The position numbers and the translations under genes were made by a program. From positions 310,001 through 374,000 of the forward strand of contig JAFLBD010000002.1 of the NCBI GenBank assembly GCA_017303935.1: a stretch of DNA of 64,000 nucleotides. Direction: 5' to 3'. This stretch comes from Armatimonadota bacterium (lineage in GTDB: Bacteria; Armatimonadota; Fimbriimonadia; Fimbriimonadales; Fimbriimonadaceae). The notes under the pieces were generated by a model. That model did no database searches and had not been told where the DNA came from. It saw only the letters and a list, made by a program, of their open reading frames with translations. Positions 2 to 64,000 of the stretch are shown here, one piece after another (the first letter of the stretch is position 1; every line of letters begins with the position of its first letter).

Positions 2-1078
2 ATCTGCTTCTTGCTCGGTATCAGCGGCGCACTCAGCATCGACTTCTTGGTAGTGAGTTGGCTGGCTGCAGCCGTGGGCGCGCACGCGGTGAACCCGTTG
101 AAGCAACGCTCAGACCTACTTCGGGCAATGTCGATCGTCGCCGTGGCGCAAGGCACCATTGCCGCTGGAACCACCGCCATGCAAGTCGCTACCGTTCGAC
201 CGGTGATCGAGTCGATGGGATGGGCCGTGCTGAGCGCGGTGATCGCGACCAGCATTTTTTGGCTGGGCGTGATCGTGGTCGAAAAGATCTTTGGCTTGGT
301 GAGCGACTGGTCGTTGCTGGAACTCTGTTCGCCGGAGCACCCAGTTCTGAAGGAGCTCACGCTCCGCGCTCCAGGAACCTACGCACACTCTGTGATGGTG
401 GGGAACTTGGCCGAAAATGCCGCGCGGGCTATTGGCGCAAACCCGGTCCTGGTTCGAGCGCTGGCGTATTTCCACGACATCGGCAAGCTGGAACGCCCGA
501 GCTATTTTATTGAAAACCAGGTCGGCGAAAACCCTCACGACACCTTGCCGCCGCATGTCAGTGCGCGAATTTTGGCAGCACATGTGAGCGATGGAATTGA
601 GCTGGCCAAAAAGCATCGATTGCCAAAGCAAATCTGGGATGGAATTCACCAGCACCACGGCACGAGCTTGATGACTTACTTTTATGGCCGGGCGATCGAA
701 GATCACGAGCCAACCCCCGAACTTGAATCGTCTTTCCGATATTCAGGACCAAGGCCACAAACACGCGAACTCGCCGTGCTGCACCTCGCAGATAGCGTCG
801 AGGCGGTGAGCCGGTCCATTCCGCGAGGAAGCACTGAAGAACTGGAAATTGCGATCAAGAGAATTATTGAGGAACGACGTGCCGACGGTCAATTGGACGA
901 GTGCGACCTCACTTTTCGCGATCTCCGCACGATCGAAACCTCTTTCCTGCGATCTCTGGGTGCACTTCGACACGAGCGCATTGCCTATCCTGAGGATGTC
1001 TTAACCCATGCGCCCGAAGCACCATCGCATCTTGATCTCGAACAACTCCGGTCGTCGTATCCCAACCAAGAGGATTGA
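2..1078 (+). CDS. PgpH/7TM-HD family HDIG phosphodiesterase, 5'-truncated by window edge
   Basis: The reading frame is open from the first bases, so the N-terminus lies outside the window. What remains is a run of hydrophobic membrane segments (about residues 1-95) followed by a cytoplasmic HD domain. The metal-binding HD doublet is visible as FHDIGK, preceded by the APGTYAHS segment typical of HDIG phosphodiesterases and followed by a QHHGTSLMTYFY stretch. Known PgpH proteins hydrolyse c-di-AMP to pApA at the membrane. Position directly before ybeY and a dgkA-like gene is the classic order for this family, which supports the call. The 3' end overlaps ybeY by 71 nt, so translation is probably coupled. 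c-di-AMP as substrate is inferred from family and context only. Confidence 0.88.
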   Translation: MCFLLGISGALSIDFLVVSWLAAAVGAHAVNPLKQRSDLLRAMSIVAVAQGTIAAGTTAMQVATVRPVIESMGWAVLSAVIATSIFWLGVIVVEKIFGLVSDWSLLELCSPEHPVLKELTLRAPGTYAHSVMVGNLAENAARAIGANPVLVRALAYFHDIGKLERPSYFIENQVGENPHDTLPPHVSARILAAHVSDGIELAKKHRLPKQIWDGIHQHHGTSLMTYFYGRAIEDHEPTPELESSFRYSGPRPQTRELAVLHLADSVEAVSRSIPRGSTEELEIAIKRIIEERRADGQLDECDLTFRDLRTIETSFLRSLGALRHERIAYPEDVLTHAPEAPSHLDLEQLRSSYPNQED

Positions 1079-6556: not shown

Positions 6557-7822
6557 TTAGGCGGCCTGACTGTCCTCGTTCGATGGATCGGCCCATTCAC
6601 AAGCTTCGTTGAGCAGGTCTTCCATCGTGCGATTTTCGCCGTCCATGTAACTGTAGCCGCAGGTTGCACGGATCACGCCATGTGGTCCTCGCCGAGTTGC
6701 TGTCCAAGGGTTCAATCGGTTCTCAAGTCGAGCTTTGACCACGCTAGCGGTGCCACCCGTCATTGGGAGAATGATCCCGAATCCGTCCTTGCCATAGCAG
6801 CACAGAACGTCGAGTCTGCGGACCAGATCCTTGATGTAGTCGGCAGCATCGCTCAGGAAGTCGCGGACACTTTCGGCGCCGTAATAGTTTTGGAGTCCGT
6901 TCAGGCCTTCAAACTTGATTACGACCACAGCAACGGGAACGTCGTCGGCCGCCGCGCGGTGAATTTCTTCTTCGAGTCGGCCCTTAAAGTACGCCTCGTT
7001 ATACAGGCCGGTGTTCAGGTCCACCACGGCTTCGTCCACATTTTGGCGCTGCTTCTTCAGCATTCGATCGCGTTCTTCTTCATTCGAGAGGATGCGTCGG
7101 AGCTTCGAGAGCGATTGTCGCAAGATGTGGCTGACGTAGTTGCAAGAAATGCCGAGTCGATTTGCGATTTCAGTTTGGCTGAGCGATTCAAAGTGAAACG
7201 CCGTCAAAACTTCTCGCTCTAGATCGCGAAGTTGACCCATCGCGCTCGTCAAGACGAGCCGATCTTCCACGCCCATCGATTCATTGGTGCAAGCGGGCAT
7301 GTTGTCAATTTCGTTTCCGTCTTCTTCGCCTGGGAGCATGGCGTCGAAAGACCCGACCTTTAAAAGGTCTGCAGTGGAATGAACTTCAGCAATGGCAGAT
7401 TCACTGACTCCGAGCTCTTCGGCGATTTCCGTCGGAGTTGGAACTCGTCCGAATTCAGCTTGAAGTTTCAATGTTGCTCGGTTCACTTTGTGCCTCAATT
7501 CCTGCAGCCAGGCAGGATGCCGGATGACCTGCGATTTGTCTCGCAGATAGTGCTTAATTTCTCCCGCAATGAGGTGGGTGGCATAGGTGTTAAACCGCAC
7601 CCCCGCTTCCGGGTCAAACTTTTTCAGTGCGTTCAGAAGGCCGATATAGCCCACTTGAACGAGGTCTTCGAACATCTCAATCCCTGAGAATCTTCGAGCA
7701 ATCCGCTCCACGGTTGGCGCGAATTGAACCAGAATCATGTCCTTTAGGTCCGGTCTTGGGTTCGCGAAGTATCGCTGAACCAGCATTTCCGGGTCCTGGA
7801 GGACCTTTTGCATTTCTCCCAT
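6557..7822 (-). CDS. RNA polymerase sigma factor (SigB/FliA-like) fused to a degenerate GGDEF domain
   Basis: The start is taken at 7822, where a GGGAG box lies 8 nt upstream of ATG; a longer frame to 7888 lacks this. Residues 51-81 are sigma region 2 (FEDLVQVGYIGLLNALKKFD, then FNTYA), about 112-150 region 3, and about 197-245 region 4 with its helix-turn-helix (LSQTEIANRLGIS). Residues 265-415 are GGDEF-like, beginning DLNTGLYN. The active-site loop reads GKDGF instead of GGDEF (344-348) and the metal-binding Asp of the first strand is missing, so diguanylate cyclase activity is unlikely. The c-di-GMP inhibitory site RxxD is kept as R335-D338, exactly five residues before the loop. The protein may be a sigma factor whose activity is set by c-di-GMP. 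It lies downstream of pilC on the same strand. Confidence 0.9.
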   Translation of the reverse strand: MGEMQKVLQDPEMLVQRYFANPRPDLKDMILVQFAPTVERIARRFSGIEMFEDLVQVGYIGLLNALKKFDPEAGVRFNTYATHLIAGEIKHYLRDKSQVIRHPAWLQELRHKVNRATLKLQAEFGRVPTPTEIAEELGVSESAIAEVHSTADLLKVGSFDAMLPGEEDGNEIDNMPACTNESMGVEDRLVLTSAMGQLRDLEREVLTAFHFESLSQTEIANRLGISCNYVSHILRQSLSKLRRILSNEEERDRMLKKQRQNVDEAVVDLNTGLYNEAYFKGRLEEEIHRAAADDVPVAVVVIKFEGLNGLQNYYGAESVRDFLSDAADYIKDLVRRLDVLCCYGKDGFGIILPMTGGTASVVKARLENRLNPWTATRRGPHGVIRATCGYSYMDGENRTMEDLLNEACEWADPSNEDSQAA

Positions 7823-7971: not shown

Positions 7972-9174
7972 TTATTTCACTTCGTTGACGATCGAGAAGA
8001 TTGGGCTCATCACCGAGATCGCGATGAATCCCACCACGACGCCCATAAAGATGATCAGCGCAGGTTCGATCATCGAGGTCAAACCTTTCACGGTTTGTTC
8101 CACTTCTTGATCATAGAAATCGCCAATTTTGACCATCATTTCGCTGAGTCGGCCCGACTCTTCGCCGATGTCGATCATCTGAGTCACCATGGTCGGGAAA
8201 AGCCCGCTGGCGATCAATGGCGCGGAAAGTCGATTACCTTCTCGAATGCTCAATCGGGTCTGTTCGATTGCAGAATTGAGAACTTGGTTGCCCAGGGTTT
8301 CTCCGACGATCTCGAGACTTCGCATCATCGGCACACCAGAGTTGATCAACGTGCCGAACGTACGGGTAAACCGGGCAACGCTCATCTTGAGCACCAGTTC
8401 CCCGATGACCGGAGTCTTCAGTTTCAAATAGTCGAGCTTGTAGCGGCCCTGATCGGTCTTGCCCCACATCTTGATACCGATCCAAATTCCGGCGACGACG
8501 ATCAAAATCATCCACCAGCTGGCCTGCATAAAGTCACCAAAGGCGAACAGCTTTGCCGTGATCGGAGGGAGCTTAGAGCCCATGTCCGCAAAAATTTCTT
8601 TAAACTTTGGAAGCACAAAGCTGAACAAAACGAACAGCATGAGGATCGAGAAGCCAAAGACGAGCACTGGGTACATCATCGCGCTCTTGATCTTCGCCTT
8701 GACCTCCGCTTCATATTCCAAGAAGCCTGAAAGCCGTTCGAGAATGGTGTCCAAAATACCGCCGAGCTCTGCCGCGCGGACCATGTTAATGTAGAGCTTG
8801 CTAAAACAGTGCGGGTGTTTGACCAGAGCTTCGTTCAGCGCCGCGCCGGATTTGACGTCTGCGAGCACCATTTCCAAGGCCTTCTTGAGCACAGGATCTT
8901 TTTGCTGCGCCACCAAAATTTCCAAACAGCGCAGAATTGGAATACCGGCGTCAATCATCGTCGCGAACTGCCGCGAGAAAATCACCAGCGATTTTGGCTT
9001 CATTTTCCCGGCAGTGATGGCGCCGCCTTTGGCAGCCTTGCCTGGCGCGATGTCCAGAACGTGCATGCCTTGATCGCGCAATCGGGCAAGTACGCCCGTT
9101 TCGCTTTCGGCGTCCATCGTGGACTTAATGGTGCGACCACTCGAGTCCATGGCGGTGTATTCAAACAATGGCAT
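7972..9174 (-). CDS. pilC: Type IV pilus / type II secretion inner-membrane platform protein PilC/GspF
   Basis: The 400-residue protein starts with MPLFEYTA, the usual PilC/GspF N-terminus, and includes an N-terminal cytoplasmic domain (1-70). Two repeated GspF domains follow, about 75-195 and 275-398, each ending in membrane helices. PilC is the inner-membrane platform on which the PilB and PilT motor ATPases act in pilus extension and retraction. A pilT gene begins near the other end of this window (62953), so the pilus genes are dispersed here. The sigma-GGDEF gene follows downstream on the same strand, a context that suggests, but does not prove, a regulatory link to motility. Confidence 0.93.
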   Translation of the reverse strand: MPLFEYTAMDSSGRTIKSTMDAESETGVLARLRDQGMHVLDIAPGKAAKGGAITAGKMKPKSLVIFSRQFATMIDAGIPILRCLEILVAQQKDPVLKKALEMVLADVKSGAALNEALVKHPHCFSKLYINMVRAAELGGILDTILERLSGFLEYEAEVKAKIKSAMMYPVLVFGFSILMLFVLFSFVLPKFKEIFADMGSKLPPITAKLFAFGDFMQASWWMILIVVAGIWIGIKMWGKTDQGRYKLDYLKLKTPVIGELVLKMSVARFTRTFGTLINSGVPMMRSLEIVGETLGNQVLNSAIEQTRLSIREGNRLSAPLIASGLFPTMVTQMIDIGEESGRLSEMMVKIGDFYDQEVEQTVKGLTSMIEPALIIFMGVVVGFIAISVMSPIFSIVNEVK

Positions 9175-9334
9175 TGATTAGAAACCCCTAATGTTTTCAG
9201 GCGCAAATCGCCCCAACACAATAAGAAATAGGTTCTTTGGGGTGAATTCTTAGGTTCAAAATTCGCTTGCTTTAACGCTTTGAACTCATAGGGTTGAAGT
9301 CGATTGTTAAGTTTCGTTACACAATCTAGTAATC

Positions 9335-10576: not shown

Positions 10577-11209
10577 GTCAAATACTTGCTCGAATGCTTG
10601 AATCGTCACAGCTTTGACCTCGTCTACGGTCACATCGCGGCCGAGGATCATGCTCAACGAAGTGACCCCGTACCCCACGATCCCACACGGAATGATGAGC
10701 TGAAATCCGTCCATCGCGTTGTTGCAATTCATCGCGATTCCGTGCACGCTCACCCACTTTTTGATCTTGACTCCAATCGCGCTAACCTTCTTGTCCCCGA
10801 TCCATGCGCCCGTATGAGGTGGAAATCTGCGTCCCTCGATTCCGTAGTGAGCGAGAACCGCGAGTTGGGTCTCTTCAAGATCGCGAAGCCATTTGTGGAG
10901 GTCCTTTCCGTGTCGGGTCAAATCGAATATCGGATAAATGACGAGTTGCCCGGGGCAGTGGTAGGTGACGTCTCCCCCTCGGTCGGTCCGAACAACGTCA
11001 ACTCCCTTTTGCTTCAGTTGTTCAGGAGTGAAGAGAAGGTTCTGTTCGTGGAATCCCGCCCCGAGAGTCAGCACGGGCGGATGCTCGACGAAGATCAAGG
11101 TGTCTGGCGCGCCCGCCATCACCATTTCGGCGACCTCAAGCTGTTTGTCCCAAGCCTCGTTGTAGGGTAATCGGCCAAGATCGAGCAGCAACGCTGAGGA
11201 CTGGCTCAA
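10556..11209 (-). CDS. lipB: Octanoyltransferase LipB
   Basis: The 217-residue protein transfers octanoyl groups from acyl carrier protein to lipoyl domains, the first step in lipoic acid synthesis. The family pattern is clear: RGGDVTYHCPGQLV (about 77-90), WIGDKKVSAIGVKIKKWVS (about 112-130), HGIAMN and the catalytic-cysteine segment IIPCGI. Its likely targets include the two-lipoyl E2 protein encoded at 47254-48780. The start overlaps the stop of the cyclase homologue upstream by 4 nt (ATGA), so the two are translationally coupled. Confidence 0.95.
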   Translation of the reverse strand: MSQSSALLLDLGRLPYNEAWDKQLEVAEMVMAGAPDTLIFVEHPPVLTLGAGFHEQNLLFTPEQLKQKGVDVVRTDRGGDVTYHCPGQLVIYPIFDLTRHGKDLHKWLRDLEETQLAVLAHYGIEGRRFPPHTGAWIGDKKVSAIGVKIKKWVSVHGIAMNCNNAMDGFQLIIPCGIVGYGVTSLSMILGRDVTVDEVKAVTIQAFEQVFDLQFGVV

Positions 11210-12966
11210 ACCGTTCGCATCTCCAACTTATAGACCACTTGATTGTCCACCAGTAGATTGAGAGCTTCTCCGCGAAGTCCGGGCATCGTCTCCCAGACTC
11301 GCTCGGTTAAGGCAATTCCGCCGACCTCACTTGCAGCTTCGACGTGTGCGGCGATGTCAATCACTTCGGTGAATTGGACCTTCTCGATGTGACCGACGAT
11401 GGTGCCTCGGTGAATCCCGATTCTCAGCTTGAACGGCATGCTGAGCTTGTTGACGGTGTTGTTGAATTCGCGGATTTTCTCCTGAATATCTTCCGAGGCG
11501 GCGAGAGCATCGATCGGGTTGTTGAACACCATGATCGCCCCGTCGCCAGCCGTCGAAAGCACTTCGCCGTTATGCTCTTGAGTAACACGCTCAAGCATTT
11601 GCTGGTACGCGCGGAACGACCACTCGGCGACATAGGGGTCCGCCATCATCTTCATCACCGACGACTTTTCTGCATCAACAACCACAACGGTGATGTCTCG
11701 TGGACCGGGGTTCAATCGCCTTTGGATGTCCAGATACTCGTAAAGCAACGTTTCGGGGTCGTTCAGCTGCATCATTCGATCTCGCAATCCACGTCTTTCG
11801 ATGGCACCTGCGATACCTGCAATGACTCCAATAACTATGGCGAAAATAAGTCCAGCCACGTGGCTCGCAATGTCACCAGTCCCTGGAACCGGGACATTCA
11901 AGAGATACAGCCCGATCAACATCGGTATATTGCCGCACACCGTGTAGAGCATCGAAATGAGTACGGACCGCCAAACTTTGCCGCCCAAGAAGGCGAGTCC
12001 CGTCTGGATTGTAATGGAAAGCAATCCAATTAGCCCTGCTGAAATTGCAGATTGGAACGAGGCATGATCAATACCGAATCTCTGTTCCAGGATCCCCACA
12101 AGCAGCACGACGATCGTGCTCATGCAGAACGAAACCACACCGGCCCAACTCCAGGGGTTGCTTTCGATCTGCTTAAACAGCGGCAATGAGTGCCAGCCGT
12201 GGAGATCGACTTTGTTCTCTGATGCTGCATTGAGCCGCTCTTCGAGTTCAAACAGTCGCTCGAGCAGATCTTGCCGAGAAAGGTAATCCTTGCTGAGCTC
12301 GATGCGCCGCATCCGAATGCCCGCTCCAACAAAGGAGAAAATCGCGCCGAAAAACCCGTAGACGATCGCCAGTACAAAGAACGCGAGACCGGCTATCGCG
12401 AACTTTTCAATAGGGGTTTGTCCTCTGTCCGATCCGTTTCGGAGGATCATGATTCCCGCTCCGATCAACATTGAGGCATAGGAGATGGCAGTCCCGAGGA
12501 AAACAGTGCGGAATTTGCCATGTCGCATCATGCATAAGTAATGGAGGAGCGTGGTGCCAAGGATCGCGATAGCCTGCACGATGTCGTCACTTTGGATCGA
12601 AATGCCACCGCCACTCGAAGCGACCGTTTTGCCACCAGAGGTCTCGCCGATGAGGAATAAAACGATGCTCAGCAGGATCGTGACCAAGAAGAAAGCGCCG
12701 GCGTTTTCGGTGATGCTCATCCAAAGATCGCCGCACCATCTCATCCATGCTGGGACCTTGAAGCGCTTAGCTTCTCGTTGACGATTGCCTTGGCTCGCAC
12801 GCAGATCAACTTGAGTCATCGCGCGCTCGATCAACGACGGACTCACCCCTGCAAGTTGTGCAAGGTCCGATGGGCTCTCATCGATAGCGGAAGGGTTTTG
12901 GCGCAGATAACTGGCCAGCTTCACCGCCTCGGATGCCAAAAAGGGAGTTTCAGGTGTGGTCTGCAA
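11206..12966 (-). CDS. Membrane protein with C-terminal class III adenylate/guanylate cyclase homology domain
   Basis: The protein has 586 residues. A soluble N-terminus (1-75) includes an LAQLAGVSPSLIE helix-turn-helix-like patch. About eight hydrophobic segments follow between 90 and 390, interrupted near 220-255 by a charged helix. A class III cyclase domain occupies about 425-580. Both metal aspartates seem present (D431 in VVVVDAEKS and D475 in AGDGA). The IGIHRG block is at 517-522. The usual transition-state pair Asn/Arg of the V-N-x-A-A-R motif is replaced: it reads I-D-I-A-A-H (D537, H541). The lysine before GD is absent. It may be a degenerate or altered-specificity cyclase. It is translationally coupled to lipB. 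Confidence 0.8.
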   Translation of the reverse strand: MQTTPETPFLASEAVKLASYLRQNPSAIDESPSDLAQLAGVSPSLIERAMTQVDLRASQGNRQREAKRFKVPAWMRWCGDLWMSITENAGAFFLVTILLSIVLFLIGETSGGKTVASSGGGISIQSDDIVQAIAILGTTLLHYLCMMRHGKFRTVFLGTAISYASMLIGAGIMILRNGSDRGQTPIEKFAIAGLAFFVLAIVYGFFGAIFSFVGAGIRMRRIELSKDYLSRQDLLERLFELEERLNAASENKVDLHGWHSLPLFKQIESNPWSWAGVVSFCMSTIVVLLVGILEQRFGIDHASFQSAISAGLIGLLSITIQTGLAFLGGKVWRSVLISMLYTVCGNIPMLIGLYLLNVPVPGTGDIASHVAGLIFAIVIGVIAGIAGAIERRGLRDRMMQLNDPETLLYEYLDIQRRLNPGPRDITVVVVDAEKSSVMKMMADPYVAEWSFRAYQQMLERVTQEHNGEVLSTAGDGAIMVFNNPIDALAASEDIQEKIREFNNTVNKLSMPFKLRIGIHRGTIVGHIEKVQFTEVIDIAAHVEAASEVGGIALTERVWETMPGLRGEALNLLVDNQVVYKLEMRTV

Positions 12967-62952: not shown

Positions 62953-64000
62953 ATGCAGAATCAGAACACTCCTCCGCCACAAGCGCCGCCTGGAATGGTG
63001 CCGCCACCGCCGGGTCAAGTCCCCCAGCCACCGATGCAGCAACAAGCCGCTGCTCCTCCACTTGAGGGTGCCGGCAAGCCGCGTCCGATCGACGATCTCC
63101 ACATTGATGCACTGCTTGAGATCGTGGTAGATCGCAACTGCTCCGACCTTCACATTTGCACCGCCAGCGAGCCTGTGATCCGTGAAGATGGTGCTTTGAA
63201 GCGACTGAACTTCGAAAAGTTTGATGCCGCGCAAACCCAGCGGATGATGTACGAAATCATCTCGGATGATCAGATTCAGCGATTCGAATCGACATTGGAG
63301 CTCGACTTCTCGTACGCACTTCCTCGAGGACGAGCACGATTCCGTGTGAACCTTTACCGAGACAAGGGCGCGGTTGCTGCTGCGTTCCGTTTGATTTCGA
63401 GCCGAATTCCAACAGTTCGCGAATTGAACCTCCCGCCGCTGCTTGATCAGCTCACCGAGCGACCTCGTGGCTTGATTCTGGTTACAGGTCCGACCGGTTC
63501 CGGTAAGTCGACTTCGCTCGCTGCGATGATCAACCACATCAACGCGAACTCGGCCGTTCACATCATCACGATTGAAGACCCGATCGAATACCTCCACTCG
63601 CACAAGCAGTCGCTGATCAACCAGCGTGAAGTTGGGCAAGATACCAAGAGCTTCAACAACGCTCTGCGTGCAGCGCTACGTGAAGACCCAGACGTCTTGC
63701 TCGTCGGTGAAATGCGTGACGTGGAAACGATCAGCTTGGCGATCACCGCAGCTGAAACGGGCCACTTGGTTTTCGCAACTCTCCACACCAACAACGCTGC
63801 GGAATCGATTGACCGTATCGTTGACGTTTTCCCTCCAGGACAGCAGGAACAAATCCGAGTTCAGCTTGCCAACAACTTGGTTGCGATTGTTTCGCAGCAG
63901 CTGTTGCCGCGAGCCAGTGGGCCGGGCCGTGTGCCAGTCAACGAAATCATGTTGGCCACCCCTGCGATCCGAAACCTTATCCGTGAAGGTAAAACTCACC
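62953..64000 (+). CDS. pilT: Type IV pilus retraction ATPase PilT, 3'-truncated by window edge
   Basis: The open frame starts at ATG 62953 and runs past the window end (about 349 residues seen). A proline-rich N-terminal extension (about 1-45) is unusual. The core has VTGPTGSGKST (Walker A, about 177-187), the Asp box IEDPIEYLHSHKQSLINQREVGQDT, Walker B LLVGEMRDVET, the His box ETGHLVFATLHTNNA, and the PilT-specific AIRNLIREGKTH. It powers pilus retraction. pilC is at 7972-9174. Confidence 0.95.
   Translation, partial: MQNQNTPPPQAPPGMVPPPPGQVPQPPMQQQAAAPPLEGAGKPRPIDDLHIDALLEIVVDRNCSDLHICTASEPVIREDGALKRLNFEKFDAAQTQRMMYEIISDDQIQRFESTLELDFSYALPRGRARFRVNLYRDKGAVAAAFRLISSRIPTVRELNLPPLLDQLTERPRGLILVTGPTGSGKSTSLAAMINHINANSAVHIITIEDPIEYLHSHKQSLINQREVGQDTKSFNNALRAALREDPDVLLVGEMRDVETISLAITAAETGHLVFATLHTNNAAESIDRIVDVFPPGQQEQIRVQLANNLVAIVSQQLLPRASGPGRVPVNEIMLATPAIRNLIREGKTH

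Follow-up and report, generated by a model that had tools for sequence, protein, structure and literature searches.

Whether a bacterial sigma factor can carry its own receptor for c-di-GMP, so that the second messenger acts on transcription initiation within a single chain, is the question raised by one gene in a 64,000-nucleotide stretch of an Armatimonadota genome of the family Fimbriimonadaceae (the window; assembly GCA_017303935.1, contig JAFLBD010000002.1, positions 310,001 to 374,000). A first-pass annotation, made without database searches, had read this gene as a sigma factor fused to a dead GGDEF domain that keeps the c-di-GMP inhibitory site (I-site). The fusion was confirmed by the open reading frame and by Pfam domains, and it lies on the minus strand, which that annotation had left unstated (Table 1). 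A ribosome-binding site, GGGAG, stands immediately 5' of the ATG.

Table 1. Positions in the window of the sigma-GGDEF gene, its functional residues and its upstream partner.
Feature	Position	Strand	Evidence or remark
Upstream region of the pilC-sigma pair	9175..9334	minus	Relatives have conserved CCGAYAAT; source genome has at most a diverged version
pilC/GspF-type inner-membrane protein, upstream partner gene	7972..9174	minus	PF00482, 2.6e-62; NCBIfam PilC/GspF
sigma-GGDEF fusion gene	6557..7822	minus	421 aa; ATG at 7822, stop ends at 6557; orthologues known
Sigma-70 regions 2, 3 and 4, SigB/SigF/SigG-like, residues 33-249	7076..7726	minus	Pfam and NCBIfam
Degenerate GGDEF domain, residues 265-407	6602..7030	minus	Pfam, 1.3e-19; structural alignment of the model
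R289 codon, equivalent of PleD R313 (I-site arginine from the partner domain)	6956..6958	minus	137/138
I-site RxxD, R335-R-L-D338, equivalent of PleD R359/D362	6809..6820	minus	R 138/138, D 137/138; gap-free PleD alignment
Catalytic-motif remnant GKDGF, residues 344-348	6779..6793	minus	GG[DE]EF in 0/138 orthologues
R365 codon, probable equivalent of PleD R390	6728..6730	minus	132/138
C-terminal Ala-Ala, possible ClpX recognition tail	6560..6565	minus	AA end in 98/109 orthologues

All four Pfam matches of the protein exceed the curated cut-offs (Sigma70_r2, 1e-15; r3, 6e-12; r4, 2e-13; GGDEF, 1e-19). With regions 2, 3 and 4 recognisable, the N-terminal part meets the criterion for membership of the sigma-70 family and is of the SigB/SigF/SigG type; its top-scoring NCBIfam model is TIGR02980 (SigBFG; 175.8 bits, E 1e-51), and since this score falls under the curated cut-off of 234, the protein represents a divergent member of that group. 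Its nearest relative of solved structure is Staphylococcus aureus SigB in an open complex (8x6g, E 5e-30), and sigma regions 2 and 4 are the best-conserved parts of the protein, with entropies of 0.83 and 0.94 bits versus 2.07 for the GGDEF domain. Assignment to FliA/WhiG failed (117 bits against the TIGR02479 cut-off of 189.6 bits). A separate FliA/WhiG sigma factor is encoded in the same genome (229 bits), as in 18 of the 20 genomes tested, the source genome included.

An AlphaFold2 model of the full-length protein, built with nine sequences, has good domains (pLDDT 73), and its pTM of 0.40 leaves the relative arrangement of these domains unresolved. In this model, a continuous helix (residues 227-261) is predicted to run from the region-4 recognition helix into the GGDEF domain. 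The modelled GGDEF part aligned best to PleD in complex with c-di-GMP (2wb4_B; Z 20.7, rmsd 2.1 A, 153 residues), and the sigma part structurally matched SigB as well as the WhiG chain of the RsiG-WhiG-c-di-GMP structures.

The GGDEF domain is catalytically dead, its active site having been lost. The comparison covers 138 fused orthologues (111 plus 30 extracted, with three truncated or frameshifted sequences excluded); GG[DE]EF is absent from every one of them, and the columns matching D327, E370 and E371 of PleD are variable. The first-pass annotation had noted the lack of a metal-binding aspartate; K303 of the source protein occupies the place of the metal ligand D327, and E370 aligns to D346, so that one of the two metal positions is still acidic in the source protein, at a position that varies over the family (T, D, H or S). 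An active diguanylate cyclase is ruled out by GKDGF, by K303 and by the absence of the catalytic motif from all orthologues.

The I-site is intact. In PleD it is described as R359, D362 and R390 of one domain together with R313 from a neighbouring domain (PMC7288161). By phmmer the fused domain aligns to PleD without gaps across the first hundred residues, which places R289, R335 and D338 on R313, R359 and D362 (2wb4 numbering); the RxxD motif was correctly located by the first-pass annotation, with five residues separating D338 from G344. R365 lies 12 residues past a conserved proline and R390 of PleD 13 past it, both within an 'AeR' motif, and because of this shared motif and nearly equal spacing R365 is very likely the R390 equivalent, with a register that is slightly ambiguous because the loop differs by one residue. 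With these four matches, and with that qualification for R365, the complete PleD I-site is retained. Sequence criteria are thus met for a dead-GGDEF I-site receptor of the PopA/PelD kind, namely a conserved RxxD placed five residues before a degenerate motif; binding of c-di-GMP itself is inferred.

Loss of R335 or D338 among homologues, which had been named at the outset as grounds for refutation, was not seen: R335 (138/138), R289 (137/138) and D338 (137/138) rank as the three most conserved of the 143 GGDEF-domain columns, and R365 (132/138) follows closely. E285 and E286, which are not I-site residues, are also highly conserved. As a control, 34 other GGDEF domains from eight of the same genomes, mostly with intact active sites, showed RxxD in 21, the R313 equivalent in nine and both in six. 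In a tree, the fused domains form one group apart from these 34 (split support 0.75), a clean separation consistent with a single origin of the fusion, and the branches within the fusion clade sum to about 89 substitutions per site; the median pairwise identity of the domain over the 138 orthologues is 29%. The predicted c-di-GMP site has remained under strong purifying selection after catalysis was lost.

The fusion is widespread in the phylum. One full-length copy occurs in almost every genome among 61 relatives, matches at 1e-30 were obtained in 234 of 291 phylum genomes (those under about 150 bits being mostly sigma-only), and full-length fusions reach across many Armatimonadota families, which rules out chance or a local pseudogene. 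In Armatimonadetes bacterium Uphvl-Ar1 and a matching genome (L118:5971-6966 and L094:580-1575), the sigma-GGDEF frame stops near residue 329, immediately short of the I-site, and the match goes on in another frame; this apparent frameshift reflects either an error in the sequence or a gene that is broken. A single scan of genome contigs for the fusion outside the phylum returned Armatimonadota or relatives only, and a plasmid search gave no record covering 80% of the fusion query. Homologues with the GGDEF part as a separate protein, which would also have counted against the reading, were not seen among the orthologues. Ten genomes without the fusion at 1e-30 also lack a close pilC, keeping only paralogues of 42-44% identity, and the five of them that were searched again contain only sigma matches of the standalone type.

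The genomic context links the gene to type IV pili. The first-pass annotation had placed pilC directly upstream, which held, and the arrangement proved to be conserved, making the association stronger than could be known from one locus. In the source genome pilC sits about 150 bp upstream on the same strand; an adjacent same-strand upstream pilC is found at 81 of 108 non-redundant loci with sufficient upstream sequence, and among 30 more distant orthologues pilC is beside the gene in 17. The operon order in two other lineages is pilB(MshEN), one or two pilT, pilC and sigma-GGDEF, the MshEN domain being itself a c-di-GMP receptor (PMC5013675); pilC and the sigma gene overlap by four bases at locus L169, and a secretin-like protein precedes the pilus-sigma operon at L172. 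At least three lineages carry the fusion without an adjacent pilC, so the pilus link is perhaps not its sole role. No anti-sigma gene was found beside sigma-GGDEF, where the flanking genes examined, without an RsiG model or motif search, were pilus genes or unrelated. Since PilT is found throughout the phylum, its presence was uninformative as a co-occurrence test. A PilT-type ATPase (62953-64000, plus strand) is open-ended at the far edge of the window and is followed outside it by a second paralogue of pilC, indicating two separate pilus-type loci about 55 kb apart.

A GCCGATAAT-like element is conserved upstream, 5' of pilC or, where pilC is not adjacent, 5' of the sigma gene itself. It resembles the -10 element of sigma-28-type promoters, in the forms TKCCGAYAATC and CTGGCAATAAT/CTGCCGATAAT, with motif likelihoods of 139 versus 35-41 in shuffles and 85 versus 32-35. 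Counts of these patterns were 29 in 14.4 kb of upstream DNA, one on the opposite strand and none in 94 kb of sigma reading frames; the patterns were selected on the same data in which they were counted, and match exactly in 29 of 78 upstream regions. CCGAYAAT or GGCAATAAT elements stand upstream in, for example, L114, L115, L180 and L051-L057, and some genomes have them in front of pilin, pilT and motA-like genes as well. Genome-wide, TKCCGACAATY gave 48 matches versus three for the reversed pattern, a few of them before pilin, pilT and motA genes; these matches were discarded as evidence of a regulon, being mostly inside reading frames and set against a reversed pattern that is a weak control. 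Within the window the upstream motif shows no enrichment. Given the separate FliA/WhiG sigma factor in most genomes tested, the element could serve autoregulation or belong to a cascade of sigma factors, and it is possible that it is read by that factor rather than by the fusion protein.

The protein ends in Ala-Ala, the only one among the 61 open reading frames of the window to do so; the residues just before this tail are unconserved, and most of the most distant orthologues lack it. A clpX gene was found in the genome (618 bits), so that sequence criteria for a ClpX substrate are met; degradation is inferred.

As regards the ligand, five GGDEF domains were found in the genome including that of the fusion, the other four having GGDEF or near-GGDEF motifs, and these four proteins could possibly provide c-di-GMP; no EAL domain was found in the genome. 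Some 4.4 kb beyond the left edge of the window (G000:C2:305241-305600) lies a short GGDEF protein, L123, with an intact GGDEF and no RxxD, and L123-like partial GGDEF matches turn up in other genomes searched. Two further loci lie within the window: a membrane protein (11206-12966, minus strand) that weakly matches a class III adenylate/guanylate cyclase domain (1.4e-5), perhaps degenerate too, and, at the window edge (11-1078, plus strand), a fragment of a PgpH-like 7TM-HD hydrolase, possibly involved in c-di-AMP turnover.

Taken together, the near-invariant I-site and the position of the gene beside pilus-motor genes make direct control of transcription by c-di-GMP probable. The likely reading is that of an active sigma factor of the group-3 type, controlled by the signal without a go-between through an in-cis receptor derived from a dead GGDEF domain. 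The fusion, its conservation, the loss of the active site, the invariance of the I-site and the pilus-operon context are shown; the in-cis sensing proposed by the first-pass annotation, which had not detected R289, R365, the -AA tail, the conserved upstream element or the phylum-wide distribution, is supported, and ligand binding, its effect on transcription, dimerisation, the direction of control, the regulon and proteolysis are inferred. In this view, c-di-GMP produced by the cell's remaining GGDEF proteins would bind the I-site through R335, D338 and R365 together with R289 of a second molecule. If PleD is a guide, two GGDEF domains would be bridged by a dimer of c-di-GMP, which would pair two sigma molecules, and the long helix between region 4 and the GGDEF domain would transmit this pairing to the sigma part. 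Activity would lie with the free monomer, and the bound dimer would be unable to engage RNA polymerase, an off state reached when c-di-GMP is high. This sign is a guess based on RsiG-WhiG, in which c-di-GMP holds the sigma factor inactive, and the opposite is not excluded. The output would probably be type IV pilus gene expression, with turnover probably governed through the -AA tail by ClpXP. A bolder version, in which a one-component sigma factor is cross-linked in pairs by c-di-GMP, switches type IV pilus transcription phylum-wide and carries its own proteolysis tag, seems to us as likely to be wrong as right.

One reservation is that no binding or transcription data exist, and it remains possible that the I-site residues are structural. 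Among the rival explanations, the one that survives best, although it is unlikely, regards the dead GGDEF domain as a docking or dimerisation module through which a partner protein controls the sigma factor, ligand binding having been abandoned. Dead GGDEF domains can indeed serve as interaction modules, and E285 and E286 are highly conserved outside the I-site; however, this proposal fails to explain why the top-ranking columns are ligand contacts, including the R313 equivalent that few sibling domains possess. Very unlikely is the view that folding or a salt bridge accounts for the retention of R335, D338 and R289 and that the domain is merely a passive remnant. Residues of the D362 type do occur widely in GGDEF domains, and RxxD is present in 21 of the 34 controls, but 13 of these siblings fold without RxxD and 25 without the R313 equivalent, and a passive remnant would not persist in all 138 orthologues over the divergence measured here. 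That the domain senses a nucleotide other than c-di-GMP, such as GTP, ppGpp or another cyclic dinucleotide, has precedents in dead GGDEF domains that sense GTP (CC_3396, quoted in PMC12943098) and in PleD structures with ppGpp, but it is likewise very unlikely in that the variable columns are those of the substrate site and the invariant ones those of the I-site.

If the reading of an in-cis c-di-GMP receptor is true, the fusion would represent a simpler solution in which the signal acts on a polymerase subunit without an anti-sigma factor, a phylum about which little is known would gain a core regulatory circuit from the ancient conservation of the fusion in pilus operons throughout the group, and c-di-GMP, a group-3-type sigma factor and type IV pili would have been wired together independently, as they are in Rubrobacter. 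Each half of the protein is of a kind already known, a sigma factor and a dead-GGDEF I-site receptor; the novelty lies in their union in one chain, an architecture which, as the first-pass annotation had surmised, was not found described in the open literature searched (subscription papers were not covered).

Among known systems, PleD of Caulobacter matches the C-terminal domain best in both sequence and structure and has the four I-site residues, but it is catalytically active as a cyclase and carries receiver domains, whereas the fusion has no active site and its GGDEF domain is preceded by a sigma factor. PelD of Pseudomonas likewise has a dead GGDEF domain that acts through an RxxD receptor site (PMC10333796), although it is a membrane protein for polysaccharide export and not a transcription factor. 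PopA of Caulobacter combines a dead GGDEF domain and an intact RxxD receptor site with a link to proteolysis, delivering CtrA to ClpXP (PMC12564702); it is, however, an adaptor with receiver domains, while the fusion is a transcription factor bearing its own -AA tail. In RsiG-WhiG, c-di-GMP keeps a group-3-type sigma factor inactive, and the regulon in Rubrobacter is that of type IV pili (PMC8325347). In 2021 this pair was reported to be the sole sigma/anti-sigma complex known as a target of c-di-GMP. There the ligand is held by a separate coiled-coil anti-sigma factor, whereas the predicted receptor of the fusion is a GGDEF domain within the sigma chain itself, and the fused sigma factor is closer to SigB/F/G than to WhiG.
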